NCBI RefSeq assembly: GCF_013391805.1
Contig: NZ_CP058364.1
Span: 930,501 to 994,500, forward strand
Origin: Galbibacter sp. BG1
GTDB taxonomy: Bacteria > Bacteroidota > Bacteroidia > Flavobacteriales > Flavobacteriaceae
Reading direction: 5' to 3'
Length of the DNA: 64,000 nt
In this document: positions 23,921 to 37,834 of the stretch, piece by piece
How positions within the stretch are numbered: position 1 is the stretch's first letter
Layout: each line of letters starts with the position of its first letter
Position numbers and translations under genes: made by a program
The notes under the pieces: generated by a model
Told to the model about the DNA's origin: nothing
Seen by the model: only the letters and a program-made list of their open reading frames with translations
The model's database searches: none

Positions 23921-25855
23921 ATGAAAACAACCACCATTCTAATAGCCTTTGCTTTATTCTCTTCTTCCCTATTCGCACAAAAAAGCACGTGGAAGGCCGA
24001 AGAATTATTCACCAATTATCATTTTGAAGAAGCTGCCCAGCAGTACAAAAAAGTCATAGAAAACAATAAAAGGCTCAAACCGGAAGAATTGGAACGCTTG
24101 GCCGACAGCTATTTCAATATTAACGACTATAAAAACGCCTTTATATGGTATGAAAAACTGTACGATCTCGAAAAAAAGCACATCAAAGAAAGTACTTTTA
24201 TTAAATACATACAGTCTGCTAAATCGAATAGAAAATACGATAAAGCAAACGAATTGATAAAAGAATATTATGCCGGAGATTATGCACGCATAGCGGCTAT
24301 TACAAAACAAAAGAGACACCTAGACGAGGTCAAGGTATCAGATTCGTTGTATAAAATAAGAAATGCTTCAATTAACAGTCCGATGTCGGATTTTGCACCG
24401 ATGTACTTTAAGGATTACTTAATTTTTTCTTCCGCTAGGGATACTGTAGTTTCTAAGGATAAAATCTACCCCTGGAATAATCAGCCCTATCTGGATTTTT
24501 ATATTTCAGAAAGAAACAAGAGCAATGGAGAGCTTAAAGAAGCTACAAAATTCAGCTTAAGCGAAAAAAGCAATTTTCATGATGCCACTATCGCTTTTAG
24601 TAAAGATTATAAGTTCGTTTACTTTACAAGCAATTACAACAGTAAAAATAGATTGAAAACCAATAAAGACGGAGTTTCCAATCTAGAAATTTTAAAGGGT
24701 TATGTTACTGGGGAAACCATTACCAATATCGAGCCATTAGAATTTAATAGAATGAAATATTCCTGTGGACATCCCGCTATTTCTTCGGACGGAAAATATC
24801 TATATTTCGCTTCGAATATGCCAGGCGGCTATGGAGAGTCCGATCTCTATGTGGCCGAAATCTATGAAGATGGCTCCACCGGGGAGCCGGTAAATTTAGG
24901 GCCGACAATTAATACCGCTGGAAGGGAAATGTTCCCTTTTGTAGCAGATAGCACTTTGTATTTCTCTTCGGATGCGCATTACGGACTGGGAGGAATGGAT
25001 GTTTTCCAAAGTAAAATTATATCCAAAACCAGTTATGAAACCCCTTTAAATATGGGGCCTACGCTTAACGGAAACATGGACGATTTCAGTTTTATCTACA
25101 ATCCGAAAGACCGTACGGGTTATTTTGCTTCCAACAGGAGCATGGGTAAAGGCGACGACGATATTTACTACTTTAAAAAGCGTGACCCGCTAATGCATCA
25201 ATTGTTTTCGGGTTATGTGTACGATTCAAAAACAAAAGAGCCTTTGCCTGAAACCAATATTGAGGTGAGGGACATTCTTTTGGATTCGGTGACGCAAACC
25301 TTCAAAACCGATGAAGATGGGTATTATGAGGTAAAGCTTCCTTTTAAAAACGAACGGGAGTTGTACTTTTCAAAAACCAATTACACGTCCAAATCCCTTA
25401 TTGCGCAGACTACGGAAAATCATTCTGAAGCACTTACAGAAAACGATGTGTATTTAACTTCCTTAGAAAGTTTAACCGTAAAAGAAGGGGATAAGGTAAA
25501 AATAGATGTTGATCCTATTTACTTTGAATTGGACAAAGCAGAAATTACCCCACAGGCACAAATTGCGTTAGAAAAAGTATTGTATGTAATGAAGGAATTC
25601 CCAACGCTTACCATCATGATAGAATCGCACACCGATTCTAGGGGATCTGATAGTTATAATATGAAACTTTCCAACGCCCGGGCAGAAAATACCAAACGTT
25701 ACCTGATTGCCAGCGGAATAGACGCTAGAAGAATTGAAGGTGCCAGAGGCTTCGGGGAAACAAGGTTGCTAAACCACTGTTCTAACGGTGTAAAATGTAC
25801 GGAAGAAGAACACTCATTAAATAGGCGATCTAATTTTATTATTGTTGAAGAGTGA
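23921..25855 (+). CDS. OmpA-family protein with TPR-like and PD40 domains
   Basis: 644 residues with an N-terminal signal (SSSLFAQ). Residues about 25-120 form TPR-like helices (EELFTNYHFEEAAQQYKK). Residues about 150-425 hold several PD40/beta-propeller strands (for example YLYFASNMPGGYGESDLYV and PFVADSTLYFSSD). A CarboxypepD_reg-like domain follows (about 430-510, SGYVYDSKTKEPLPETNIEV). The C-terminus is a peptidoglycan-binding OmpA domain (about 526-644, with ESHTDSRGSDSYN and SNARAENTKRYL). This architecture regularly accompanies PorP/SprF and type-B adhesins, where it probably anchors the surface complex to peptidoglycan. A terminator follows. The role is inferred from family context; domain calls are firm. 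Confidence 0.92.
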   Translation: MKTTTILIAFALFSSSLFAQKSTWKAEELFTNYHFEEAAQQYKKVIENNKRLKPEELERLADSYFNINDYKNAFIWYEKLYDLEKKHIKESTFIKYIQSAKSNRKYDKANELIKEYYAGDYARIAAITKQKRHLDEVKVSDSLYKIRNASINSPMSDFAPMYFKDYLIFSSARDTVVSKDKIYPWNNQPYLDFYISERNKSNGELKEATKFSLSEKSNFHDATIAFSKDYKFVYFTSNYNSKNRLKTNKDGVSNLEILKGYVTGETITNIEPLEFNRMKYSCGHPAISSDGKYLYFASNMPGGYGESDLYVAEIYEDGSTGEPVNLGPTINTAGREMFPFVADSTLYFSSDAHYGLGGMDVFQSKIISKTSYETPLNMGPTLNGNMDDFSFIYNPKDRTGYFASNRSMGKGDDDIYYFKKRDPLMHQLFSGYVYDSKTKEPLPETNIEVRDILLDSVTQTFKTDEDGYYEVKLPFKNERELYFSKTNYTSKSLIAQTTENHSEALTENDVYLTSLESLTVKEGDKVKIDVDPIYFELDKAEITPQAQIALEKVLYVMKEFPTLTIMIESHTDSRGSDSYNMKLSNARAENTKRYLIASGIDARRIEGARGFGETRLLNHCSNGVKCTEEEHSLNRRSNFIIVEE

Positions 25856-25881
25856 TGTTGGTTAAGCTTTTTCAACGTTTT

Positions 25882-25911
25882 AAGTCCTCATGTTCGCATG
25901 GGGGCTTTTTT
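25882..25911 (+). terminator. Rho-independent terminator of the adhesin operon
   Basis: A stem from 25882 to 25892 pairs with 25897 to 25907 around a TTCG tetraloop, with G-T wobbles, then a T run. It lies 27 bp after the OmpA gene. Confidence 0.82.
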
Positions 25912-26172
25912 GTTGATTTGGTTAATTGAGGGGGTTTTAAATAAGTAAAGAAGGGAAAGAGGAAAAATTATTTTTTTGGTCTTCTGGCTTCTGGCTTCTG
26001 TCCTCCAGCTTCTAGTCTTCAACAACAGACGCCTTTGGTGAAAGTGTTAATATGTCGTTGATAGTATTCTTTCTTTATTCGATATAGAAAACAGATAATT
26101 TGGTAGATTTGAAGAGGAGCGGTAACCGCATGTTGCGGTTATATAGTAATTGTGTATAATTAAAAGTCAAAA
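25912..26172. other. Intergenic region with short CTTCTGG repeats and leader repeat copy A
   Basis: Around 25980-26020 there are degenerate CTTCTGG/CTTCTAG repeats with no coding potential. From 26046 the sequence is the first copy of a leader repeat described separately. No promoter consensus is obvious ahead of the HNH gene. Confidence 0.5.
26046..26153. repeat. Leader repeat copy A (upstream of HNH gene)
   Basis: About 108 bp, similar to 27315-27420. Shared blocks include TGTTAATAT, GTTGATAG, ATAGAAAACAGAT, ATTTGGTAGATTTG and a 3' hairpin region. The hairpin here is TAACCGCA-TGT-TGCGGTTA (26123-26141), perfect over eight base pairs. The copy ends 20 bp before the HNH start codon. Confidence 0.75.
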
Positions 26173-26901
26173 ATGAAAAATGAGTTAATAATTGGAGACC
26201 GTTTTGAAGGAGTTCTTTTAGAGACAATTAAAGGAAAAAGTTCTTCAAGACCAAGAGTAAGACCTCTTGAGTATTTTGACTTAGAAATCAGAGTGGAATT
26301 CCCTCGACATCTTCGAGAAGATAATCCATTGGGAACTCGATTCAGATCGGACGTTAAAGTATCACAAAAGACTAAAAATGGAGAACCTTGGGGTAGCCCA
26401 TATTTAGTTGCAACGGATAGCAGTATTATTAAACTTGATTATACTCCTAAAAAGTTAATTCAGGCAATAAAACTAAATACTGCAAGTGATAGAGCATATG
26501 ATTACATAGAGAAAGAGTTTAAAGTTGAACCTAAACTCATAAAGTTTTCGGAATTTAGAAAAAAAGCTTACATAAATTCAATTGAATCACCTAAATCAAA
26601 AGTAACAAATGCTTCAAGCATTCAGCGTTCGGATATTATAAAGACTTACGCACTTTCAAGAGCTAACGGGACTTGTGAGGCTTGTGATAATGACGCTCCT
26701 TTCCTCAAAAGGAATGGCCAACCATATCTTGAAGTTCATCATATTAAGGAATTAGGCAAAGGCGGTAGTGATTCTCCTAAGAATGTTGCTGCAATTTGTC
26801 CAAACTGTCATGCCCGAGTAACTCACGGTCAAGATGCTAATAAATTTAACAATGAATTGCGGTCTAAAATTTTGACAAAAGAAGAAGAACTTGAAAAGTA
26901 A
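26173..26901 (+). CDS. HNH endonuclease domain protein
   Basis: 242 residues. The C-terminal third is an HNH nuclease: zinc-type Cys pairs C168/C171 (CEACDND) and C209/C212 (CPNCH), with His189/His190 (LEVHHIKELGKGG), Asn204 and His213. The N-terminal ~110 residues (for example EYFDLEIRVEFPRH and NGEPWGSPYLVATDSS) look like a small beta-rich module I cannot assign. It could recognise modified or specific DNA, as in McrA-like restriction nucleases. No methyltransferase or other restriction subunit is adjacent, so it may be a solitary defence or mobile nuclease. It is preceded by leader repeat A and followed by a REP-like palindrome and the 21-bp repeat tract. Confidence 0.85.
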   Translation: MKNELIIGDRFEGVLLETIKGKSSSRPRVRPLEYFDLEIRVEFPRHLREDNPLGTRFRSDVKVSQKTKNGEPWGSPYLVATDSSIIKLDYTPKKLIQAIKLNTASDRAYDYIEKEFKVEPKLIKFSEFRKKAYINSIESPKSKVTNASSIQRSDIIKTYALSRANGTCEACDNDAPFLKRNGQPYLEVHHIKELGKGGSDSPKNVAAICPNCHARVTHGQDANKFNNELRSKILTKEEELEK

Positions 26902-26907
26902 TTGTAC

Positions 26908-26946
26908 CCCGCTAGCGCGAGCGTCACGCTCGTGACACTTACGAGT
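26908..26946. repeat. REP-like palindrome after the HNH gene
   Basis: GCTAGCGCGAGCGTCACGCT is followed by CGTGACACTTACGAGTAAG. Nested inverted repeats are visible: CGAGCGT/ACGCTCG (26918-26932), and alternatively GTCACG/CGTGAC (26923-26936). This GC-rich palindrome in AT-rich DNA has the style of Bacteroidota REP elements. It begins a few bases after the HNH stop. Confidence 0.65.
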
Positions 26947-27018
26947 AAGAATAAAAAAGGAATTGATTTTCCAGTTTTGGCCTCCGGCATCTGGCTTCCA
27001 GTACCCAGTAAAAAATAC

Positions 27019-27291
27019 CATTTAGGTTCGGCAACTATAATTTTAGGTTCGCTAACCAACCATTTAGCCTCCACGGCCAAGCGTTTAGGTAAAACAACCA
27101 TGTTTTTAGCCTCCGCACCTAAAAGTTTAGGCTAAATACCGAAAGTTTTGGGCAGTGTCCTTAAAGTTTTAGGTTATTTCTTAAAAACTTTAGTAATGGA
27201 AGTCAAAACTTTAATCATAACGATCAAAATTTTGGTCATAGCACCTAAAAATAGGGTCTCGGAACCTAAACGGCACGTGTTTCTACCTAAA
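27019..27291. repeat. Exactly 21-bp-periodic degenerate tandem repeat (13 units)
   Basis: Thirteen consecutive 21-bp units with no length change. The consensus is roughly nnTTTAGGnnnnnnnnCCTAAA, so each junction tends to form a CCTAAAnnTTTAGG palindrome (clear at about 27112-27127). The last units lose TTTAGG but keep CCTAAA. Sequence between the fixed positions is nearly random. It lies between the HNH gene and leader repeat B. There is no CRISPR-like repeat/spacer layout and no convincing gene. Confidence 0.85.
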
Positions 27292-27314
27292 AAACAGCCG
27301 ACCTAACCCGAGAT

Positions 27315-27420
27315 GTTAATATTTGGTTGATAGATTATTTCTTCTTAAGGCATAGAAAACAGATTATTTGGTAGATTTGGAGAGTAACGGTAACTGCATA
27401 TTGTTGTTATATAATAGTTG
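27315..27420. repeat. Leader repeat copy B (upstream of higB)
   Basis: Imperfect direct copy of 26046-26153, sharing TGTTAATAT, GTTGATAGAT, CATAGAAAACAGATTATTTG and GTAGATTTGGAGAG. The hairpin is degenerate here (TAACTGCA-TAT-TGTTGTTA) but still mostly pairs. It lies about 100 bp before higB. Confidence 0.75.
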
Positions 27421-27476
27421 CATTTGTTCAAAAAACCATTATTTTAACTAACACCTTCTGTTAATTATTTTTTACA

Positions 27477-27484
27477 TACCTTTG
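27477..27484 (+). promoter_or_regulatory. Probable -7 promoter box of the higBA operon
   Basis: TACCTTTG matches TAnnTTTG and lies 37 bp before the ATG of the toxin gene. The -33 element is poor (TTCTG near 27456). Confidence 0.5.
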
Positions 27485-27521
27485 CATGAGATAAAGTGAC
27501 AGAAATAAACTTATCCTGAAC

Positions 27522-27854
27522 ATGGATATATCATTTGACGATAATAGATTGAAAAAATATGCCAATAATGACAAACAAGCAATAAAAAAGTTAGGTCGAA
27601 GAAGAGCTGATTTATATAAACAGCGATTAGATGATTTATATGATGCAAGCACATTAGAAGATGTAAGATATCTACCCGGTAATTACCATGAGTTAAGAGG
27701 TAATAGAAAAGGTCAATGGGCGTGTGACTTAGATCATCCATATAGACTCATCTTTGAACCACACGAAGACCCAATACCTACAAATGAATCAGGACAATAT
27801 ATTTGGTTAAAAATAAAAGGTGTTGAAATTATTGAAATAGTCGATTATCATTAA
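27522..27854 (+). CDS. higB: HigB/RelE-type toxin of a type II toxin-antitoxin system
   Basis: 110 residues of the RelE/ParE/HigB fold. Typical elements are the Lys/Arg-rich helix KKLGRRRADLYKQRLDDLYD, then LEDVRYLPGNYHELRGNRKGQWACDL, HPYRLIFEP and the C-terminal strand KGVEIIEIVDYH. HigB toxins cleave mRNA on the ribosome. The antitoxin gene starts 12 bp downstream, and toxin-first order is the classical HigBA arrangement. The gene sits just after leader repeat B in the accessory patch, so horizontal acquisition is likely. Functional activity cannot be judged from sequence, but no truncation is visible. Confidence 0.86.
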   Translation: MDISFDDNRLKKYANNDKQAIKKLGRRRADLYKQRLDDLYDASTLEDVRYLPGNYHELRGNRKGQWACDLDHPYRLIFEPHEDPIPTNESGQYIWLKIKGVEIIEIVDYH

Positions 27855-27866
27855 AAATGAAGAATT

Positions 27867-28973
27867 ATGGCAACGAATAGAAATGAATATTTACCAGAAA
27901 CAGTATCTCATCCAGGATTGACTTTAGCTGAGAAATTAAAAGAATTAGGCATGGGAAATAAAGAGTTTTCAGTAAGAGTCAATAAGCCTGAGAAAACAAT
28001 AACTGCAATCACTAAAGGAGATAGTTCAATTACAGCCGAAATGGCAGTAAAATTTGAAGACGTTTTAAAGATCCCTGCATCATTCTGGTTATTACGACAA
28101 AGAAGGTATGACGAGTATAAAGCCAGGGTTAAAAGAAATGAAGATATTCAAAATGCCATTGAGTGGGCTAAGGGTTTTCCTTATGCCAAAATGGCAAATT
28201 TAGGTTGGGTTGAGAAAACAAGAAAAATAGAAGAGAAAGTTCTAGCTCTATTTGACTTCTTTGGAATTTCTGACCATAAAGCATGGACTTCATATTATTT
28301 TGAGCAAGAATTAAAGGTCAGTTTTAGAATATCACTTGCTCACACAAATGAAGCAATGGCCGTTTCTGCATGGTTAAGACAAGGAGAAAAGAAAGCTAAG
28401 GAAGTTACAACAAATCCCTTCAATCCACAATTGCTTAAAAATTCATTGAATGAAGTAAAAAAAATAATGGCTGACCATCCGGAAAATTTCTTTGAAAGGC
28501 TTCAAGAAGTTTGTTTTAAGGCAGGTGTAATCGTACTTTATACACCATGTCTACCTAAAGCTCCAGTTCATGGCTCAACTAGATGGTTAGGTGACACACC
28601 ACTAATACAATTATCCGCTCGATATAAAACGAATGATAAGTTTTGGTTCACTTTTTTTCATGAGATAGGTCATATCCTTTTACATGGAAAAAAATATATC
28701 TCAATAGAAAATGTGAATTATAGTGACCAGGATTTAGATAAAGAGAAAGAAGCTGATGAATTTGCAATTAAGTGGACTTTTAGTGAAGTTGAAGAAAAAG
28801 AAGTAATTAATGCAGCCCCGTTGTCATCAGATGATATTTTGAATTTTGCAAAAAAATTTAATACACATCCTGCATTAATTATTGGTAGATTCCATAAAAA
28901 AGAATTTGTTCATTACAGTGTTGGTAGAGAATTTATCGAATCGATTGATTTAGAAAAAACAAATGGTAACTAA
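27867..28973 (+). CDS. higA: HigA-type XRE antitoxin fused to an ImmA/IrrE-like metallopeptidase
   Basis: 368 residues. An XRE helix-turn-helix of HigA type occupies about residues 10-65 (LAEKLKELGMGNKEFSVRV...MAVKFEDVLKIPASFWL). The C-terminal half is an ImmA/IrrE-like zinc peptidase with HEIGH at 265-269 and a downstream third ligand in EKEADEFA (Glu295). A classical HigA has only about 100 residues, so this is a two-domain form. The peptidase may process the repressor itself or another protein and so control toxin release. It follows higB by 12 bp. Domain calls are strong; how the peptidase acts in the TA system is inferred. Confidence 0.88.
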   Translation: MATNRNEYLPETVSHPGLTLAEKLKELGMGNKEFSVRVNKPEKTITAITKGDSSITAEMAVKFEDVLKIPASFWLLRQRRYDEYKARVKRNEDIQNAIEWAKGFPYAKMANLGWVEKTRKIEEKVLALFDFFGISDHKAWTSYYFEQELKVSFRISLAHTNEAMAVSAWLRQGEKKAKEVTTNPFNPQLLKNSLNEVKKIMADHPENFFERLQEVCFKAGVIVLYTPCLPKAPVHGSTRWLGDTPLIQLSARYKTNDKFWFTFFHEIGHILLHGKKYISIENVNYSDQDLDKEKEADEFAIKWTFSEVEEKEVINAAPLSSDDILNFAKKFNTHPALIIGRFHKKEFVHYSVGREFIESIDLEKTNGN

Positions 28974-29289
28974 ACCTATAAGGAATAGCCCCCACTCCCG
29001 TAAGTAAGCCTCAGACTCGTTACGAGTCTAAATAAAAAACAAGAGAAGAAGCCTCAAAATGCTTAAAACAAACTTTCTTAACTGACCACTTCGGTTTTCT
29101 AGCATCCAACTTTAAACCTCCAACTTCCAACACTTAGTAACCCCACATGGAATTAAAAAACCAGTGTTTATGCTAAAGCAAAATCAATACGCTATATATT
29201 AATTTATAAAAGTTTAAATTTACGTCAGTCAGAAGGGTGAAAAACTTAGCAAACTTATTATAGATTGAGTAAGCAAGAGCTTTTAATTC
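28974..29289. other. Intergenic region with a palindrome after higA
   Basis: 316 bp. A perfect hairpin AGACTCGT-T-ACGAGTCT (29013-29029) lies 40 bp after the higA stop; it lacks a T run and looks REP-like. A low-complexity CCAACTT/CCTCC stretch follows at 29106-29130. No promoter for the LytTR gene was recognised. Confidence 0.55.
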
Positions 29290-30126
29290 ATGAGTAATAC
29301 ACAACCAACCAAAAATACGGCAAAAACATTACGGCATACACTTACCAGTAGTTCATTATGGAGTTGGTTACAAAAAATTATTTTATTTATAGTTTTCTCC
29401 TTAGTGGTGAATCATTTAGCTACCCGAGACAGTTTTTTTGGTGGTGATTCCTATAGATTCCCGATAGAAGGTTTTCTGTCATCTATTGCGTTGTGTATTT
29501 TCATTGGAATCATAGCAGAGCTTAATTTTAAATATTACAAGAAGAAACATTTCTGTAAAAAGGTAGAAAGTGTCACAATCTTAAGGTTTATGGCTTCTAA
29601 CCTAGGTTACATTACACTATTGTATATTCCTCTAAGTATAGCAATAAATATACTTGCAGGTGGACAGACAGAATTCTACTACTTATTAATTGGTTTGCTA
29701 ATTACGCTACTCTTAAGCTTTATTCTCATAGCATTGACATACGCACATAATATCTACAATTTATATAAGCTATCTATAAAAGATGCTGAAATTACTATTG
29801 AAAGCAGCGGAAAAACTACAAAGCTTACCTATGAAAATATTGCCTGCTTTTACAGCGAAAACAAGATTGTATATACGGTACAAAATGATGGTAGCGTAAT
29901 TCATACCGATTTTACACTGAATGAACTCGAAGAAAAAATAAACGACCAATTGTTTTTTAGAGTCAATCGGCAAATGATTATTCACAAAGATGCTGTAGGC
30001 CAAATTGAAAAAATTGAAAACGGCAAGTTACGTATTTGGTTAAAGTCGGTTATTGAAAACGATGCGATTGCTGAAATCAATATCAGTCGGTATAGGCGCA
30101 AAGCATTTATGGATTGGTTTCAGTAA
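29290..30126 (+). CDS. Membrane-anchored LytTR-family transcriptional regulator
   Basis: 278 residues. The N-terminal half has four predicted TM segments (about 26-44, 60-76, 100-122, 132-155). The C-terminal half (about 165-278) is a LytTR DNA-binding domain, with LTYENIACFYSENKIVYTV, the FFRVNRQMIIHKDAV motif and a final ISRYRRKAFMDWF helix. No receiver domain is present, so it is a one-component membrane regulator instead of a response regulator. It probably senses something in or at the membrane and controls nearby genes. The CPBP protease gene follows 125 bp downstream on the same strand, a pairing seen with peptide or stress control systems. The target is unknown. Confidence 0.88.
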   Translation: MSNTQPTKNTAKTLRHTLTSSSLWSWLQKIILFIVFSLVVNHLATRDSFFGGDSYRFPIEGFLSSIALCIFIGIIAELNFKYYKKKHFCKKVESVTILRFMASNLGYITLLYIPLSIAINILAGGQTEFYYLLIGLLITLLLSFILIALTYAHNIYNLYKLSIKDAEITIESSGKTTKLTYENIACFYSENKIVYTVQNDGSVIHTDFTLNELEEKINDQLFFRVNRQMIIHKDAVGQIEKIENGKLRIWLKSVIENDAIAEINISRYRRKAFMDWFQ

Positions 30127-30251
30127 AAAGCACCAAAAATCACCGACCATTCAGTTTTAAATTTACTACCACTCAGTAAAAGCATCAGCATTTAAAGGGG
30201 TTTTCAAAGATTTTGTTCATTACTTGGCTTTGAATTTAAAGACGAAAAAAA

Positions 30252-30917
30252 ATGAACAACCTCAGTTTAAAACAAATTATAATTCCATTAATCACTACTG
30301 TGATCATCTGCTTTTTATGGTTTGGACCAATCCGTATTCCCTACATAGAAAATATCATCATTGCTATTCTGATTATTATAATGAGTTATATAGAATACCA
30401 AGGGAAACCATTTTCAACACTTGGAATTCGGCGAGAAAAATTTACATTTAAAAATATCTTTTTGCTCGCACCATTGGTTGCGCTAGGACTCTTCGCATTT
30501 TATGTCTTTGTTTTGGTTCCCGGAATTACAAAACTCACGGGAGCTCCTATAGATTATTCGGCATTTAATCAATTAACTGGGAATTTATCCGCCAGCTTAG
30601 TCGCCTTGGTGTTGGTATGGGCGACTGCGGGATTTGGGGAAGAAATAATCTTTCGCGGTTATTTTATGCGACAGTTTGTTAAATTCTTTGGAGAAAGCAA
30701 AGTCAGTATTGTGCTTAATATATTTCTTCTTTCATGTTTGTTTGGCTTTATGCACAGTTATCAAGGGATTACTGGGCAACTTGTTACGGGTATTGTAGGA
30801 GCGATTTTGGCTCTCATATTCTATTTGCGCAAATACGATTTGTGGTTTGTTATCGCTGTGCATGGTTTTTTTGACACTATTGCAATCATTTGTGTGTACC
30901 TCGGCTTGGCACAATAA
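30252..30917 (+). CDS. CPBP family intramembrane glutamic endopeptidase
   Basis: 221 residues and about seven hydrophobic segments. The family motifs are present: EExxxR at Glu130/Glu131/Arg135 (FGEEIIFRGYF), a second motif with His168 (FGFMHSYQG) and His204 in AVHGFFDT. CPBP (Rce1/Abi) proteases act inside the membrane. In bacteria they often serve in bacteriocin immunity, anti-sigma or signal processing. The gene follows the LytTR regulator and is followed by REP-like sequence. An overlapping frame starting 30224 is a shadow. Function beyond proteolysis is unknown. Confidence 0.88.
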   Translation: MNNLSLKQIIIPLITTVIICFLWFGPIRIPYIENIIIAILIIIMSYIEYQGKPFSTLGIRREKFTFKNIFLLAPLVALGLFAFYVFVLVPGITKLTGAPIDYSAFNQLTGNLSASLVALVLVWATAGFGEEIIFRGYFMRQFVKFFGESKVSIVLNIFLLSCLFGFMHSYQGITGQLVTGIVGAILALIFYLRKYDLWFVIAVHGFFDTIAIICVYLGLAQ

Positions 30918-30948
30918 AACCATAGGAGTTAACAACCCACAAAAACCC

Positions 30949-31135
30949 TGCTAGAGCGAGCTAGTATTAAAACTGCCATGCCGTATTACAACAAAGGGTA
31001 TTATGGTTAATTGGGATGATTTGGTTTCCACGTGGTTGTCATACCGACCAACGAGAGGCATCCCATTATTATGCATTTCCTGATGTGATTTCTCCCTGCG
31101 GTCGAAAAGACACATTGAAGGGATAATATAAAAAC
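30949..31135. repeat. REP-like repeats between the accessory patch and isoprenoid genes
   Basis: GCTAGAGCGAGCTAGTATTA at 30951-30970 is an imperfect palindrome. Further on, 31077-31112 contains a TGTGATTTCTCCCTGCGGTC segment, whose complement (GACCGCAGGGAGAAATCACA) is a common Bacteroidota intergenic repeat. No gene was seen in the 260-bp gap. Confidence 0.6.
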
Positions 31136-31177
31136 AATGAACATTTAATTTTCCAGGATCCAACACCCCATAATTCC

Positions 31178-32083
31178 CTACAAAATCCTATTCAACACCA
31201 AGTCAACATCAATCAATAGAATACTGAAAACCCCCGAAACGATAATAAGCTTAAGGATGTTATGCAACAATAGATAATGTAATTTCCTGTTGGATTTCCA
31301 AAGGAAAAATACAAACACCAACATTAACAGCATACAGCCATAAAAGAAAATGTACATAAAGCCAATCTCGTAGGAGGTTACCAAGAGATAGGCGGGAAGA
31401 AAAGTAAGCACACTTAAAAAAGTGATAATAATTTTTGAAGTACGCTCGCCATATACCACCGGAATTGTTTTGTAATTCTGTGCGATATCACCTTTTATAT
31501 TTTCCAGGTCTTTAACCATTTCCCTAATGAGAATAAAAAGAAATAGGAAAACAGCATGTACAAATATTACAGGTTGAAAGTTACCGTAATAAAGAAATAC
31601 TGCAAAAAATGGTGTAATCGCTAAGGTAGCGGACACAAAATTACCTATAAATGCAATTTTTTTCAGTTTATGGGAATAAAACCATATCCCAAAAATATAA
31701 AGTGAAAAAAATACGACGGCCCGAAAAGAAGCATAACTTGCAAAAATCACCGAAATGAAATTCAGGATAAAATAGGAAGACAATTTAAAACGCTGACTCA
31801 CCAATCTATCCAACATGGTTTTTGTAGGCCGATTTATCAAATCTTTCTCGACATCGTAAAAACTATTTATAATGTACCCGGAAGCAATAGCAATGGCAGA
31901 AGCGGAAACGATAGCGAATAAGTTGGGATCGAAAATTATTTTACTAACAGGCGTATCTGGCGCCAAAATATAAATTGAGGTAAGGTATTGGGCTAAAGTT
32001 ATTACCAAAACATTGTAGCCTCTTACTACCGAAAACAGGCTAAGGAACTTGAACAAGATAAGTTTTTGCCCTCGGTTGAACAT
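31178..32083 (-). CDS. UbiA-family prenyltransferase (geranylgeranylglycerol-phosphate geranylgeranyltransferase-like)
   Basis: 301 residues with about eight or nine TM segments. The first Asp-rich motif is ASGYIINSFYDVEKDLINRP (NxxxDxxxD) and the second is around VKDLENIKGD, both typical of UbiA enzymes that bind prenyl diphosphate through Mg2+. In Flavobacteriia this member is commonly annotated as geranylgeranylglycerol-phosphate geranylgeranyltransferase. Its place next to mevalonate kinase and diphosphomevalonate decarboxylase on the same strand supports a role in isoprenoid lipid metabolism. It starts 15 bp after the mevalonate kinase stop. The exact acceptor is uncertain. Confidence 0.85.
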   Translation of the reverse strand: MFNRGQKLILFKFLSLFSVVRGYNVLVITLAQYLTSIYILAPDTPVSKIIFDPNLFAIVSASAIAIASGYIINSFYDVEKDLINRPTKTMLDRLVSQRFKLSSYFILNFISVIFASYASFRAVVFFSLYIFGIWFYSHKLKKIAFIGNFVSATLAITPFFAVFLYYGNFQPVIFVHAVFLFLFILIREMVKDLENIKGDIAQNYKTIPVVYGERTSKIIITFLSVLTFLPAYLLVTSYEIGFMYIFFYGCMLLMLVFVFFLWKSNRKLHYLLLHNILKLIIVSGVFSILLIDVDLVLNRIL

Positions 32084-32098
32084 ATTTTGAAAATACTT

Positions 32099-33037
32099 TT
32101 AGAAGTTATAGACAACCTCTAGTTTGTAACCTTCCAATGCTTTTTTGGCCTGCTCAATATCTTGGGTGAACCCTAAAATATAACCGCCACCGCCAGAACC
32201 GCAAAGTTTTAAGTAGTAATCGTTAGTATCGATTCCTTGTTTCCACAATTTGTGGAATTGTGCGGGAATCATTGGTTTGAAGTTTGTTAAAACAGTATCA
32301 GATAAATGTTTTAGATTGGTAAACAAAGATTTTACATCCCCTTTTAAAAAATCGTCCACACAGGCGTCCGTATGTTTTATAAATTGATCTTTCAACATAT
32401 TGCGAAAACCTTCCTGCTTCATGTTTTCCATAAAAATCTGTACCATTGGAGCCGTTTCCCCGGTAGTACCGCTATCCAATAAAAACACAGCGCCTTTTCC
32501 ATCAACCGCTTGGGAAGGGATTCCTGTAGGTTCTATATTGTCTTTGGAGTTGATAAGGATAGGCAAACTCAAATAGCTATTTAATGGATCCAAGCCAGAG
32601 GACTTTCCGTGGAAAAAAGATTCCATGGCCCCAAAAATGGACTTTAATTTTAAAAGTTTATCCCTTGTTAAGTTTTCCAACACCGTAATTTTATCGGCAG
32701 CATATTTATCGTAAATGGCAGCCACCAATGCGCCACTACTGCCCACACCGTATCCTTGCGGAATACTGCTATCGAAATACATTCTGTTTTCAACATCTTC
32801 AGTAAGTTTTTCAATATCAAAAGACACTAAACTATCCGGTTCTTGCTGAAGTTCATCAAGATAAAGCGCAAACTTTTTTAAACTTTCATTGGATTTTTTG
32901 GCTTCTGAAGATAAATCATCACTTACCTTCAATGCTCCATTATAGAAATTATAAGGGATAGACAACCCTTTGGAATCTTTTATGATGCCATACTCTCCAA
33001 AGAGCAATATTTTAGAGTAGAATAAAGGACCTTTCAT
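32099..33037 (-). CDS. mvk: Mevalonate kinase (GHMP kinase family)
   Basis: 312 residues. The GHMP ATP-binding motif is PQGYGVGSSGALVAA, and the C-terminal motif 3 is LCGSGGGGYILGF. The N-terminal FYSKILLFGEYGIIKDSKGL matches motif 1 of mevalonate kinases. It phosphorylates mevalonate in the lower mevalonate pathway and acts in the cytosol. It is in one operon-like run with diphosphomevalonate decarboxylase upstream (gap about 106 bp) and the UbiA prenyltransferase downstream (gap 15 bp). Phosphomevalonate kinase activity is another possibility within this family, but neighbours and motifs favour mevalonate kinase. Confidence 0.88.
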   Translation of the reverse strand: MKGPLFYSKILLFGEYGIIKDSKGLSIPYNFYNGALKVSDDLSSEAKKSNESLKKFALYLDELQQEPDSLVSFDIEKLTEDVENRMYFDSSIPQGYGVGSSGALVAAIYDKYAADKITVLENLTRDKLLKLKSIFGAMESFFHGKSSGLDPLNSYLSLPILINSKDNIEPTGIPSQAVDGKGAVFLLDSGTTGETAPMVQIFMENMKQEGFRNMLKDQFIKHTDACVDDFLKGDVKSLFTNLKHLSDTVLTNFKPMIPAQFHKLWKQGIDTNDYYLKLCGSGGGGYILGFTQDIEQAKKALEGYKLEVVYNF

Positions 33038-33143
33038 ATAATTGTCGATTATCTCGGGATAATCACGTTTTGTTTAACATTTAAATATAAGAAATTTAAC
33101 ATTCCCAACAAAGTGTTTCTAAATAATGATATCTTTCCTTCAG

Positions 33144-34241
33144 TTATAAATTTTCAAAGGCTTTTGCACCTTCGCCAACTTGGTCGCAAATATACTTACC
33201 ATCCTTACAATATGCAACGAGTTCGCTTTTAATAAATTCCAGCACTTTTTCTTTGGTATTTTCAGGATATAATACATGTACATTGGCACCTGCATCCAGT
33301 GTAAAACAAACCGGTACACCAGTGGTTTTTCTATACTCCCATATCTTATCGATAATGGCCAGTGTATTTGGTTTCATCAATATAAAATAGGGAATGGAGG
33401 TCATCATCATGGCATGTAGCGTAAGCGCTTCACTTTCCACAATTTCTATAAACTTCTCAAGATTGCCTTCACTGAAAACGGTTTTTAATACGGAAAGGTT
33501 TTTATGTGCTTGATGAAATCTATTTTCAGCAAAAGGATGGCCGTTCATCAAACCGTGTCCCACGGTACTGCTCACTTTTTTCTCCCCAACGTCTACCAGT
33601 AAAATAGTGTCTTGGTAGTTTTTAAAAACGTCGTGTACGTGGCCAGTATATTTTACTCCAAACAGATTGTTACTTTTATTCACCTCTTCGTGGGTTCCCC
33701 AAGCTACAAGAGGTCCTTCTATACTTCTCGAAGCACTTCCAGAACCTAAGCGTGCCAAAAATGAAGATTTTTCATTGAAGTATTCATCTTCCATTTCCGG
33801 ATTTAATTCACGCTCCATACTCATTAAACACAGCGCCAAAGCGCTCATCCCGCTTGCAGAAGAAGCAATACCACTACTGTGTGGAAAAGAATTGTGGGTT
33901 TTAATGGTGAATTGATATTCTTTTAAAAAAGGGAGATACTTATAAATCCGCTTAAAAAAAGTTTCAATCTTTGGTGCAAAATCGGGTTTCAACTCCCCAT
34001 CCAAATACACTTCAAAACTAAAATCTTCTTCTGTATGTTGCTTTTCCTTTTTGGTAAATTTTAAAGTGGTTTCGGTATGGCATTTATCCAACGTAAAACT
34101 AATGGAAGGGTTGGCTGGGATTTGATGTTCTTTCTTTCCCCAGTATTTCACCAAGGCAATGTTGCTGGGTGCCTGCCATGAAAAACTGCCCGACTCCAAT
34201 GTTTTGCTATAGGGCTTTGGAATAAACTTATCTACCGTCAT
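33144..34241 (-). CDS. mvaD: Diphosphomevalonate decarboxylase
   Basis: 365 residues of the GHMP superfamily. It begins with the MVD-typical WQAPSNIALVKYWGKKE, has the phosphate loop SFPHSSGIASSASGMSALAL and the segment GSGSASRSIEGPLVAWG, and ends with a FTLDAGANVHVLYP element. It converts mevalonate diphosphate to isopentenyl diphosphate. Length fits bacterial enzymes. It lies upstream of mevalonate kinase on the same strand and is preceded by a good -7 box, so the isoprenoid operon probably starts here. TspO is divergent upstream. Identification is strong. Confidence 0.93.
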   Translation of the reverse strand: MTVDKFIPKPYSKTLESGSFSWQAPSNIALVKYWGKKEHQIPANPSISFTLDKCHTETTLKFTKKEKQHTEEDFSFEVYLDGELKPDFAPKIETFFKRIYKYLPFLKEYQFTIKTHNSFPHSSGIASSASGMSALALCLMSMERELNPEMEDEYFNEKSSFLARLGSGSASRSIEGPLVAWGTHEEVNKSNNLFGVKYTGHVHDVFKNYQDTILLVDVGEKKVSSTVGHGLMNGHPFAENRFHQAHKNLSVLKTVFSEGNLEKFIEIVESEALTLHAMMMTSIPYFILMKPNTLAIIDKIWEYRKTTGVPVCFTLDAGANVHVLYPENTKEKVLEFIKSELVAYCKDGKYICDQVGEGAKAFENL

Positions 34242-34258
34242 TTTTACTAAAATTTAGA

Positions 34259-34266
34259 CAAATATA
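34259..34266 (-). promoter_or_regulatory. Probable -7 promoter box of the isoprenoid operon
   Basis: On the minus strand this reads TATATTTG, an exact TAnnTTTG, ending 17 bp before the mvaD start codon. No clear TTTG is seen at the -33 position. Confidence 0.48.
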
Positions 34267-34351
34267 AATTAATCTACTAAGTTGTGCTGTACAGGAAGCT
34301 TTGTTTTAATTGTAAAATAAATTGCTATTTTTAAGGAATAAAGCAAAGCAG

Positions 34352-34828
34352 ATGATTTCAAAAAAACTAACCCGTATTTTAATTTCGGTGGCTGTATGCT
34401 TATTGGTGGGCTTTCTTTCTGGATATGCCACGCAAACTTCGGTGGGGACTTGGTACGCCACCATTAACAAACCTTCTTTTAACCCTCCCAATTGGATTTT
34501 TGCTCCTGTTTGGACAGTTTTGTATGTTATGATGGGTATTGCCGCTGGTATTGTTTGGGCAAGGGGGTTTTACCATAAATGGGTGCAAACGGCTTTATAT
34601 CATTTCGGATTCCAATTGATATTTAATGCCATGTGGAGTATTGTTTTCTTCGGGTTTCAAAAGCCATTCTGGGCGTTGCTGATAATTATAACCCTGCTTA
34701 TTCTTATATTATTAACCATTAAATGGTTTAAAGTGGTAAATAAAGTTGCTGCCTACCTCCTCATCCCTTATTTATTATGGGTGTGTTTTGCAACCGTGCT
34801 CAATTTTAGTATTTGGCAACTTAATTAG
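34352..34828 (+). CDS. tspO: TspO/MBR family tryptophan-rich sensory protein
   Basis: 158 residues from ATG 34352; a TTG at 34322 would add ten residues but is a poorer start. Five TM helices are visible. Family hallmarks are WYATINKPSFNPPNWIFAPVWTVLYVMMG, here a continuous Trp/Pro-rich region after the first helix, and WARGFYHKW. TspO binds tetrapyrroles or sterol-like ligands and takes part in stress responses. It is divergent from mvaD and converges on the flavoprotein gene with a 4-bp gap. Ligand and function in this organism are unknown. Confidence 0.92.
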   Translation: MISKKLTRILISVAVCLLVGFLSGYATQTSVGTWYATINKPSFNPPNWIFAPVWTVLYVMMGIAAGIVWARGFYHKWVQTALYHFGFQLIFNAMWSIVFFGFQKPFWALLIIITLLILILLTIKWFKVVNKVAAYLLIPYLLWVCFATVLNFSIWQLN

Positions 34829-34832
34829 ATTC

Positions 34833-36089
34833 TTAAAATTGTTTTGCAATAGCTTTGGCAGCCATAAAAGCGCCGGTCCATGCATTTTGAAAATTAAATC
34901 CGCCTGTAATCGCGTCAATATTTAATACTTCCCCTGCGAAATAAAGATTTTTGCAGATTTTGCTCTCGTAAGTCTTAAAGTCAATTTCTTTTAAATCCAC
35001 CCCTCCGGCAGTCACAAATTCTTCTTTAAAGGTGGTTTTCCCGTTTACATTATAAACTGCTGAAGTTAACTCCCCCACTAAATTTTGAAGTTGTTTTTTA
35101 TTGACCTCTGCCCAATTTAACTGTTCCTGAATCCCGGCAGCCCCTAGAATTTTGAACCACAAACGCTTTGGAAGTTCAAACGGGCGCGTGTTGAAAACCG
35201 TTTTTTTAGCTTCGGAAGATTTTATTTCCTTTAACAAGCCTAAAACTTCATCGGCGTTTAACTGCGGAAGCCAATTTACTTGAATTTTAAATTGATAGTT
35301 AAGGGCATGTAATTCCCTTGCTCCCCAAGCTGAAAGTTTTAAAATGGCAGGCCCACTCATTCCCCAATGCGTAATAAGCAAGGGGCCATTGGCTATGGCT
35401 TTTTTCCCATCGTCTAGCTTGATGGCTCTCCCTTTTCCATCCAACAGACTCACTTGTGCAGCAGAAGAAACCCCCATAAGCTCACTTATTCGGTCATCTT
35501 TTATATTAAATGTAAATAAGGATGGAACCGGCGAAATCACGCTATGCCCCAACGTTTCCATTTGTTGCCATATTTTTGGGTTACTTCCTGTGGCTATAAG
35601 TATTGTTTTGGATTGTAAGATACCTTGAGTAGTATCCAACTCCCAAGACGCAGTATCTCCTTGCTTAGGGGTTATATTTTTTACAGCGCAATTGGTGTTC
35701 ACTTTAATGCCTAATTTATCTACTTCGGAAGTAAAACAATCGATAATGGTTTGGGAAGAATCGGTTTCTGGAAACATGCGTCCGTCCTCTTCAATTTTCA
35801 GTTTCACGCCACGCTCTTCAAAAAAAGCTACTGTGTCTCCACTGCAAAAGCTATGAAAGGGCCCTCGAAGCTCTTTTCGCCCCCGTGGATATGCTTTTAC
35901 AAGTTCGTTTGGGATAAATTCGGCATGAGTAACATTGCAGCGCCCACCACCAGAAATTTTTACTTTATTGAGCACTTCCTTGCCCCTTTCTAAAATGACT
36001 ATCTGCAAATTTGGATTTTGCTGTGCTATTTGAATAGCCGCAAAAAATCCAGCCGCTCCACCACCCACTATAACTACATCTAAAACCAT
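34833..36089 (-). CDS. BaiN/HI0933-family NAD(P)/FAD-dependent flavoprotein
   Basis: 418 residues. It has an N-terminal FAD fold (VIVGGGAAGFFAAIQIA), a KVKISGGGRCNVTHAE motif characteristic of the HI0933/YhiN group, a central LLITHWGMSGPAIL motif, and a C-terminal CKNLYFAGEVLNIDAITGGFNFQ-type segment that closes the FAD site. Members are widespread and mostly uncharacterised; one relative (BaiN) reduces bile acid intermediates. It converges with tspO, whose stop is 4 bp away. Nothing nearby indicates a substrate. The gene's 5' side abuts a 21-bp tandem repeat array. Confidence 0.88.
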   Translation of the reverse strand: MVLDVVIVGGGAAGFFAAIQIAQQNPNLQIVILERGKEVLNKVKISGGGRCNVTHAEFIPNELVKAYPRGRKELRGPFHSFCSGDTVAFFEERGVKLKIEEDGRMFPETDSSQTIIDCFTSEVDKLGIKVNTNCAVKNITPKQGDTASWELDTTQGILQSKTILIATGSNPKIWQQMETLGHSVISPVPSLFTFNIKDDRISELMGVSSAAQVSLLDGKGRAIKLDDGKKAIANGPLLITHWGMSGPAILKLSAWGARELHALNYQFKIQVNWLPQLNADEVLGLLKEIKSSEAKKTVFNTRPFELPKRLWFKILGAAGIQEQLNWAEVNKKQLQNLVGELTSAVYNVNGKTTFKEEFVTAGGVDLKEIDFKTYESKICKNLYFAGEVLNIDAITGGFNFQNAWTGAFMAAKAIAKQF

Positions 36090-36142
36090 AGGGCAAAGTT
36101 AGTTTTTTTGCCCGTACTATAATTAATCTATTTTTTAATGAC

Positions 36143-36415
36143 TGCAAAGCCTTCTCCGGGTTGTACAAAATCATCTTCGAGTCCTGCAAAACCTTCTCAA
36201 AGTCGTGCAAAGACATTTCAGATTCATACAAAGCCTTCTCTGAGTAGTGCAAAAACATCTCGAAGTCGTGCAAAGACAGTTCAGATTCATGCAAAGCCTT
36301 CTCTGAGTGGTGCAAAAACATCTCAAAGTCGTGCAAGACATACTTGTATATATACAAAAACATTTTGGAATCGTACTTAGACTTCTATGAGGTATGCAAG
36401 CCGCACTGCAAGTTG
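36143..36415. repeat. 21-bp tandem repeat array (13 units)
   Basis: Thirteen successive 21-bp units without indels; consensus approximately TGCAAAGnCTTCTCnnAGTCG. Units 4-6 (36206-36268) and 7-9 (36269-36331) form a 63-bp higher-order repeat with few differences. The last four units are degenerate. Because 21 bp is seven codons, both strands stay open and the minus strand gives heptad-like Leu/Glu peptides. I regard these as by-products. It lies in the 503-bp gap between the BaiN-like gene and the porin. Confidence 0.9.
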
Positions 36416-36592
36416 TTAAATCCTTTCTGGAGGTTGAAATGCAATAATTATAGCATTAAGATTAAATAAGCTGGTAAATCGAGTCTGAAATCCTGCTAAA
36501 AAAAGTGGATTAGCTTGCCTAACCGTGGTGAGCAGTCAGGCTCAACTTACAATGTTGATTTGGCAGTACCTACTTATCAACATTGAGTTTTA
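36416..36592. other. Intergenic remainder after the tandem array
   Basis: The part of the 36090-36592 gap beyond the repeat array contains no gene or recognisable element; a terminator for the porin gene is not obvious. Confidence 0.4.
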
Positions 36593-37834
36593 CTAAAAGT
36601 AAAACATAAATCCAAAACTTATACGCATGGCATCCCGGCTTTTAGACTCTGCAATAAACTGGTCGTTTACAAAGCCTTCGCCAGAGAGTTTTTTAACCCC
36701 ATAATCAAGTTCCAAACCAATCGTCATTCGATCGTAAGGATCGTACATTACATTAAAAATTCCGTAGAAATGCCTATGGTCCATATTCCCATTAAGATAA
36801 ATGCTGGGTTCCTCATCCTCCGGAAAAAAAATATGCCGCGTAGCATTATCTGTATAGAAATAGGTGTAACCAAAAACGAGGTTGGTGTGAATTTTAGGGT
36901 GAAAGAAATATTCGTAGGAAGCCCATCCACCGAGGGCAGGGGTAGCACTAAAACTATTGTTCTTGGTAGGAAAGCCATCGTAACCATGACCAGAAATAGT
37001 GGTCATGTAAGCGGTAATACCTTTACCACCAACGAATTGAAACTGCAGATTATTTCTGGAATTTATACGGCGATAAATCCCAGAAAAACTAAAACCATAA
37101 CCAAAAAAGCCATCTTCCTCTTGGTTGAGCTTATATCGAATATATCTATAAACAGAAGACAGACGGAGATGTCCCCAAGGCTTTTCAAATTTCATGGCCG
37201 CAGTTAAATCTGGCACATATTGATTGGCTTCCTCCACATAAGGTTCTAAATCTTTATATCTCGTATAGTCGTTTATCGGTGCTTCCAGACTAATCTCATA
37301 AATAAAATTGGGGTTACGCAAGGTATTTTTATATTTTATATGCAGTGTTCGCAACCAGATTCCAGACGGTGGCCCTTCCCATTCCATGATGTCTGGCCAT
37401 AAAATTTCGTCTCCGAAGTTGTTCCAATTCTGTCCGATTTGCCAGTGTTCTGTTTCCACAAAGGCCCGGCGTAAACGTACGCGGCCATCACCTCCCCAAA
37501 AATCGGATTCTACCACTGCGTCTACTTTTTTGCCACTATCTAAAATAAGACTGGTTTCCATGCGGATTTGCGTTTGGTAAAGGTCTACATTTAAGCTTTT
37601 GGAGTCGTCTGTACCAAAAACATTAATACTCCCAACGGCAAAAGTTTCGCTGTCCTGCAATCCTCCAAAAACATCAAAATAACCGTTGAGTTTCATGTTT
37701 ACCCCCAGACTAGCTTTGTAGCGAGGCAACTCACCGACCGAATCTTTCGCCTGCACCGATAACAAACGATCTTGGGCCTCCATCGAAACGAGACCACATA
37801 TATTCAGAAAAAAACAAAGTAATAGCCTCCTCAT
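36593..37834 (-). CDS. DcaP-family trimeric outer membrane porin-like protein
   Basis: 413 residues with a signal peptide (LVSMEAQ) and a long series of amphipathic beta strands ending in FGFMFYF, a C-terminal Phe typical of outer-membrane barrels. Segments such as FDVFGGLQDSETF, RLRRAFVETEHWQIGQNW and WPDIMEWEGPPSGIWLRT fit the DcaP group, trimeric porins described for dicarboxylate or similar small-molecule uptake. No transporter or enzyme operon accompanies it, so its substrate is open. The start at 37834 gives a proper signal sequence. The opposite-strand frames are shadows of this gene. Confidence 0.8.
   Translation of the reverse strand: MRRLLLCFFLNICGLVSMEAQDRLLSVQAKDSVGELPRYKASLGVNMKLNGYFDVFGGLQDSETFAVGSINVFGTDDSKSLNVDLYQTQIRMETSLILDSGKKVDAVVESDFWGGDGRVRLRRAFVETEHWQIGQNWNNFGDEILWPDIMEWEGPPSGIWLRTLHIKYKNTLRNPNFIYEISLEAPINDYTRYKDLEPYVEEANQYVPDLTAAMKFEKPWGHLRLSSVYRYIRYKLNQEEDGFFGYGFSFSGIYRRINSRNNLQFQFVGGKGITAYMTTISGHGYDGFPTKNNSFSATPALGGWASYEYFFHPKIHTNLVFGYTYFYTDNATRHIFFPEDEEPSIYLNGNMDHRHFYGIFNVMYDPYDRMTIGLELDYGVKKLSGEGFVNDQFIAESKSRDAMRISFGFMFYF

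Follow-up and report, generated by a model that had tools for sequence, protein, structure and literature searches.

The available text of PMC8161180 poses as an open question why some bacteria carry non-coding tandem repeats whose length is fixed while their sequence is free. The same question is raised by a tract in the chromosome of Galbibacter sp. BG1. The window, that is the whole stretch of 64,000 nucleotides analysed here, covers bases 930501-994500 of this single-contig 3.71-Mb genome. In it, the first-pass annotation had described thirteen 21-bp units, none of another length, carrying TTTAGG and CCTAAA at fixed positions and joined by palindromic junctions. Self-match at lag 21 in the interval 27019-27291 was 0.571, against 0.263 +/- 0.029 in shuffles (z 10.7); none of 1000 dinucleotide-preserving shuffles got to 0.571 at any of the lags compared (12 to 60), and self-match was also 0.45-0.53 at lags 42, 63, 84, 105 and 126. 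A shift-tolerant decoder (1-4 bases) read 276 bases with no shift and set the array register 2 bp to the right of the earlier frame (Table 1). The number of units and their constant length are thereby borne out. Since Tandem Repeats Finder reported only 27017-27067, with 2.4 copies, the array lies mostly below ordinary detection. As for the palindromic junctions, a perfect CCTAAAnnTTTAGG occurs once, at 27118, and the remaining junctions are imperfect. The HNH gene ends 120 bp before the array and the HigB-like toxin gene starts 229 bp after it. A CRISPR array, which would have near-identical repeats and unique spacers, was considered and rejected, the 21-bp units sharing kept words only.

Table 1. 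Features of the array locus and of the second 21-bp repeat (window positions).
Feature	Position	Strand	Remarks
Accessory stretch between OmpA-type and UbiA genes	25856..31177	.	
First module copy, before the HNH gene, without array	26045..26165	+	
HNH endonuclease gene	26173..26901	+	Best PADLOC match type IV methyl-directed restriction enzyme, 1.5e-18
13-unit 21-bp array, consensus TTTAGGTnnnnnACCTAAAnn	27021..27293	.	Self-match, shift-allowing decoder
Module of ~120 bp directly after the array, before the HigB-like gene	27314..27433	+	Invariant AGAAAA and TAGATTTG blocks, 7-8 bp hairpin
HigB-like toxin gene	27522..27854	+	PF05015, 27.5 bits vs cut-off 27
HTH + M78 peptidase antitoxin-like gene	27867..28973	+	Best PADLOC match PD-Lambda-2_B, 1.9e-30
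Second 21-bp array, non-palindromic, about GCAAAGnCnTCTCnnAGTnGT	36131..36440	.	Separate family

The tract is one member of a dispersed family of TTTAGGTnnnnnACCTAAAnn units. When the own genome was searched for two TTTAGG words 21 bp apart, with one mismatch allowed, more arrays were found near 567.3-567.7, 1959.1-1959.3 and 2150.0-2150.4 kb and confirmed by a scan of each stretch; for matches near 789 kb the scan gave no array. Seven genomes of the genus, here called Galbibacter/Joostella, were then compared, including Galbibacter mesophilus (G006), G. orientalis (G005) and Galbibacter sp. EGI 63066 (G002). With up to two mismatches, the array pattern matched 11 times in the own genome (2 for the control), 143 in G006 (3), 25 in G002 (0), 24 in G003 (0) and 7 in G005 (1), so that five of the seven genomes exceed their control counts; G001 (1 match, control 3) and G004 (1, control 0) are without this array in the same search. 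Across the taxonomic family, with one mismatch, 14 of 299 genomes had a match; apart from the own genome, this is roughly what the reversed pattern gave as a control. The other 285 had none with this pattern, which misses degenerate arrays. The array is thus dispensable, being missing from G001, G004 and most genomes of the family. Nucleotide similarity to tract plus module was found in 3 of the 40 relatives searched, own genome counted. At a limit of z 6, which would miss decayed arrays, 398 kb of the own genome (20 stretches) contained one 43-nt array and no 21-bp array, and no 21-bp array was found in 317 kb of other genus and family genomes (20 stretches, several of them very short and one with N runs).

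The exact pattern was also searched in a collection of 84,980 species. It gave 71 stretches, 52 with a decoded array of at least 84 bases and 19 without. Arrays were found in Galbibacter, Joostella, Flavobacterium, Bergeyella, Chitinophagales, Saprospiraceae and other Bacteroidota, and outside Bacteroidota in two Treponema contigs and one Acidobacteria contig. The spread in other Bacteroidota is patchy. Relatives do carry arrays, a point that the first-pass annotation had proposed to check. As the scan used this consensus, the shared consensus is partly a product of the search, which also favours well-kept arrays. The region 27000-27440 had no match in phage or plasmid collections; the exact pattern occurred in four viral contigs, with a clear array in L158, beneath a 318-aa ORF. 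The similar 21-bp arrays of the Treponema contigs lie at L113:6765-6995 and L128:7-174; the former would read as LGxFPKx heptads and may be coding there. In Flavobacterium geliluteum (L121:2737-3114), several self-complementary unit types, with TTTAGGT, TTTGACG and TTTGGGG stems, occur in one array.

In order to weigh length against sequence, mutated consensus positions and phase shifts were counted in the arrays of the genus. About a third of the consensus positions were mutated (1708/5383, 22 entries), and only four phase shifts, all +1, were found in 321 de-duplicated units (19 segments, L158 being excluded from the shift counts). When run on simulated arrays in which insertions and deletions were equally frequent, the decoder recovered ~70-90% of the indels with no bias towards either. 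Aligned with three homologous G. mesophilus copies, the window array differed by 52-57 substitutions and by gaps of 21 bp only, whereas its flank, diverged to a similar degree, showed 20-27 substitutions over 127 positions and four gaps of 1-2 nt in each case. Among the homologous G. mesophilus copies the array gaps were 42 and 21 bp, and the ~130 bp after the array contained at least one gap of 1-2 nt in 6/6 comparisons. Within the arrays of four dispersed G. mesophilus copies, too, the gaps measured 21 bp; the one exception, a gap of a single base, lies at an array edge. For the decayed array L039 no shift was decoded; as the in-phase excess there is evident only at a distance of one unit, little weight is placed on it. 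Together, these results uphold the earlier statement that unit length is much more strongly conserved than sequence; the random indels in relatives that would have spoken against it were not seen between species. The arrays gain and lose whole units. One G. mesophilus array lies upstream of a menD-like gene, and none was seen over the corresponding 620 bp of the six other genomes, which likely reflects gain of an array at a new site (present in 1/7 genomes).

The shifts that do occur are strongly one-sided. The 394 units of 30 array segments from other taxa contained 49 insertions, all but three of them of 1 bp (46), and 3 deletions, which gives 53 insertions to 3 deletions over all arrays. 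The deletions are confined to three arrays (L107, L135 and L136) and the insertions are spread over more than twenty. Forty-four of the 56 shifts fall at unit positions 7-13, that is in the linker that separates TTTAGGT from the following ACCTAAA, plus edges, where simulated random indels would place 20-29%. As the added base falls in the linker, the rigid part is the compact dyad ACCTAAA-nn-TTTAGGT, and this dyad is the palindromic junction of the first-pass annotation. Successive shifts in other taxa were 43 bp apart ten times and 64 bp apart twice, other distances occurring once each; these shifts are not independent, several of the arrays coming from one Chitinophagales MAG with a 43-bp super-repeat. 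Such super-periods correspond to units of 21+22 or 21+21+22 and, not being multiples of three, are not codon spacing. They are close to four and six B-DNA turns, which fits two turns per unit. The earlier equation of 21 bp with two helical turns thus gains from the 43-bp super-period of other taxa; that the palindromes lie on one face of the DNA is inferred, and the cooperative protein binding, DNA looping or nucleoid-associated site suggested in that annotation would be candidate roles. Predicted curvature was above that of shuffles (mean z 2.3 over 18 arrays, 3.0 in the window, with a peak at unit length 21), with assumed wedge angles and for a measure in which any 21-bp repeat adds up in phase; it was weak in several arrays (L041 z -0.9, L127 0.3, L130 0.7).

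The two half-motifs are periodic, as first described, but they are not equally kept. In the window array, left units retain TTTAGG and tend to lose CCTAAA and right units do the opposite (correlation 0.73, permutation p 0.003). The CCTAAA-minus-TTTAGG score climbs from left to right in 18/18 Galbibacter/Joostella arrays of at least 10 units, with p<0.05 in 13 of them. Among 13 arrays of other taxa, two climb (p<0.05) and five run the opposite way (p>0.95). As read from the sequence, the polarity amounts to putative half-sites facing inward at both array ends.

The reading that we tentatively prefer, at slightly less than even confidence, is that the tract is a non-coding, constant-length 21-bp satellite forming a phased array of putative dyad protein sites. 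Its rigid element would be a 16-bp dyad, ACCTAAA-nn-TTTAGGT, recurring every two B-DNA turns across a linker of 5 bp, or of 5 or 6 bp in other taxa. A putative dimeric DNA-binding protein would sit on successive dyads along one helix face and form a cooperative complex, and selection would keep the spacing because of that complex, while the arrays would gain or lose whole units and appear at new intergenic sites. We infer that selection, rather than mutational bias, is behind the kept spacing. Several observations count against phased sites: neither a binding protein nor an array-linked gene was found, the array is dispensable, a few arrays show some stem covariation, and a row of equal dimers does not predict the polarity of the outer units.

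We consider it possible, though unlikely, that the array is a neutral satellite with no function, in which slippage and unequal recombination change the unit number, out-of-phase units recombine badly and get lost, and quasi-palindrome correction maintains self-complementarity. Whole-unit differences and the patchy distribution would follow, and two G. mesophilus paralogues are closer in the array (18 substitutions/253) than in the module (29/132), as homogenisation would give. Against this, phase is held in the 321 genus units despite the mutated third of consensus positions, and the excess of insertions over deletions and its placement in the linker are both absent from simulated random indels.

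A bolder version of the phased-site reading, and a more doubtful one, is that a putative Bacteroidota protein polymerises on ACCTAAAnnTTTAGGT dyads two turns apart, with the inward half-sites at both ends defining the array. We know of no description of such a chromosomal scaffold. If true, it would explain why constant-length bacterial satellites keep length and not sequence, the protein reading helical phase over letters.

It is improbable that the array is instead transcribed into a row of RNA hairpins (or forms them as single-stranded DNA), TTTAGGT-loop-ACCTAAA, acting as a small RNA, a sponge or a recombination substrate. Consensus units could fold with a 7-bp stem and a 5-nt loop, and satellites of Bacillus coagulans are transcribed according to the available text of PMC8625621. 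Pairing was examined in 52 arrays, a set that omits arrays sharing a 40-mer with another. Among the arrays listed, within-unit pairing was better than in re-dealt units, at z of at least 2, in L064, L102, L107, L113, L139 and L155, and adjacent-unit pairing reached z 4.0 in L153. The omitted arrays were analysed separately (13 arrays): one had p<0.05 (L105, p 0.03), L110 (0.054) and the mixed-unit array L121 (z only 1.8, p 0.056) were near it, and L128 gave no value. Over the 52 arrays, however, pairing covariation was absent (same-unit z 0.9, adjacent-unit z -0.3), the window array gave z -0.8, the predicted fold of the tract region hardly surpasses that of shuffled sequences (z -1.7, 7/100 as good), and no Rfam match up to E 1 was found in 25500-37500. 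Moreover, a hairpin loop should take -1 as readily as +1, contrary to the 53 to 3 shifts. A structured RNA hairpin array is accordingly not supported, compensatory stem changes being absent overall, though a few arrays reach z of at least 2. Mirrored-unit pairing was raised (z 2.7, 38 arrays of at least 8 units), the sole one of three pairings to be so, and outer-unit polarity can explain this.

Still less probable is that array and module mark a junction at which accessory cassettes, often for defence, are exchanged, genes being swapped by homologous recombination between junctions of identical sequence. The whole accessory stretch is absent from G003 and G004, where the OmpA-type gene adjoins the UbiA gene at a distance of ~45-60 bp. 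At the G. mesophilus OmpA-type locus (87% protein identity), array and module are kept and the neighbours differ, SLATT_5 standing in place of HNH and ParDE in place of the HigB-like pair. Of the identified neighbours, eight have a PADLOC match: the window and L007 contribute two each, L059 three and L147 one. On the other side, the excess is small (8/67 neighbours vs 3 to 6/67 random genes), arrays adjoin housekeeping genes too, e.g. the menF-menD-like pair, and a cassette junction leaves the constant 21 bp unexplained. Counted by model, the neighbours had 69 PADLOC matches at 1e-10 vs 4 for random genes; a single protein (L147) accounts for 50 of the 69 and few proteins for several others, and in view of the small per-protein excess no general defence link is claimed. 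The HigB-like toxin gene itself had no PADLOC match at 0.01, and the HigB/HTH pair by the 567-kb array matches PD-Lambda-2_A and _B. The interval between the OmpA-type and UbiA genes (window stretch; L059) appears as a hot spot in which HNH, PD-Lambda-2-like, SLATT_5, ParDE and PDC-M11 are exchangeable.

The module lies upstream of 11 genes in two species (window; L006, L007, L041, L059, L060), and its hairpin has eight predicted pairs, one with compensatory changes. Its TAGATTTG block resembles the Bacteroidota -7 element, and the module is a candidate promoter/leader or cassette boundary. Seven-nucleotide CTTCTGG-type repeats lie beside the cassettes at 25975-26012 and 26975-26998 and, by eye, also before G. 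mesophilus arrays.

Finally, a decayed or active heptapeptide-coding repeat, LGxxPKx, is hardly credible: 21 bp is seven codons, one window frame reads HLGSATIILGSLTN and one Treponema array lies under a 159-aa ORF, but none of 18 arrays is stop-free in any frame, six comparisons show no excess of third-position substitutions (window vs L059a: 17, 19 and 21 at codon positions 1, 2 and 3, of ~91 each), and the 43-/64-bp super-periods break the frame. In 11 of the 52 entries an ORF of at least 80 aa (86-318 aa) spans more than half of the array; the remaining 41, among them the window, have no such ORF. The ordinary coding repeat that the first-pass annotation had named as an alternative is thus rejected for this genus.

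The window contains a second, non-palindromic 21-bp family (Table 1), whose phase is held over 10 units; elsewhere in the own genome, similar stretches lie at 1978.9 and 236.5 kb. As it has GCAAAG arrays besides those of TTTAGG/CCTAAA, this one genome contains several same-length families. An open frame over much of the second array reads as leucine-bearing heptads, and this family may be coding. A 43-nt array of different sequence, with the dyad GATACGTnnnnnnACGTATC, was observed at L162:7120-7480 (own genome 387.1-387.5 kb), where 131 codons without a stop run across it; its period would also fit the helix spacing.

In partition-site iterons, parC for example, a protein that multimerises binds a row of evenly spaced sites. 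The array resembles them in its evenly spaced row, with binding putative here, and differs in being chromosomal and dispersed, with no par-type gene among seven window neighbours. REP/BIME palindromes share with it the dispersed intergenic self-complementary units; unlike them, the array forms long head-to-tail rows with a fixed 21 bp and without overall stem covariation. On the question why such repeats keep their length, the family offers a handle in its rigid dyad and its tolerant linker, with a direction of tolerance, +1 and hardly -1. As related species are found with and without the array at one locus, the DNA-helix explanation is directly testable.

The closest known class is that of the non-coding tandem repeats of Subirana and Messeguer, of constant length (20-21 nt, and also 52 nt; PMC8161180, PMC6749651). 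In the available text of PMC8161180, repeats of constant 20-21 nt, with several families per species and free sequence, are described in Bacillus and other groups, a polymerising protein or nucleoid role is proposed and 20-21 nt is noted as two helical turns. Priority for the protein or nucleoid suggestion and for the two-turn remark therefore lies there, as far as that text goes, and the present array adds variant features. Here too, at least four units of one length, a non-coding sequence and several same-length families in one genome were found. A literature search gave no account of a rigid dyad, of indel rarity measured against the flank, of +1 linker shifts with 43/64-bp super-periods or of polarity, some of which may stand in Subirana and Messeguer (J Bacteriol 2020). 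Compared with the available text on these repeats, the arrays share fixed length, variable sequence, a non-coding nature, several families per genome, species specificity and a short kept word. They differ in that the kept word is a dyad, that short indels are counted as rare relative to the flank, that arrays of other taxa carry +1 linker shifts (21/43/64 bp) and that those of the genus show inward polarity.
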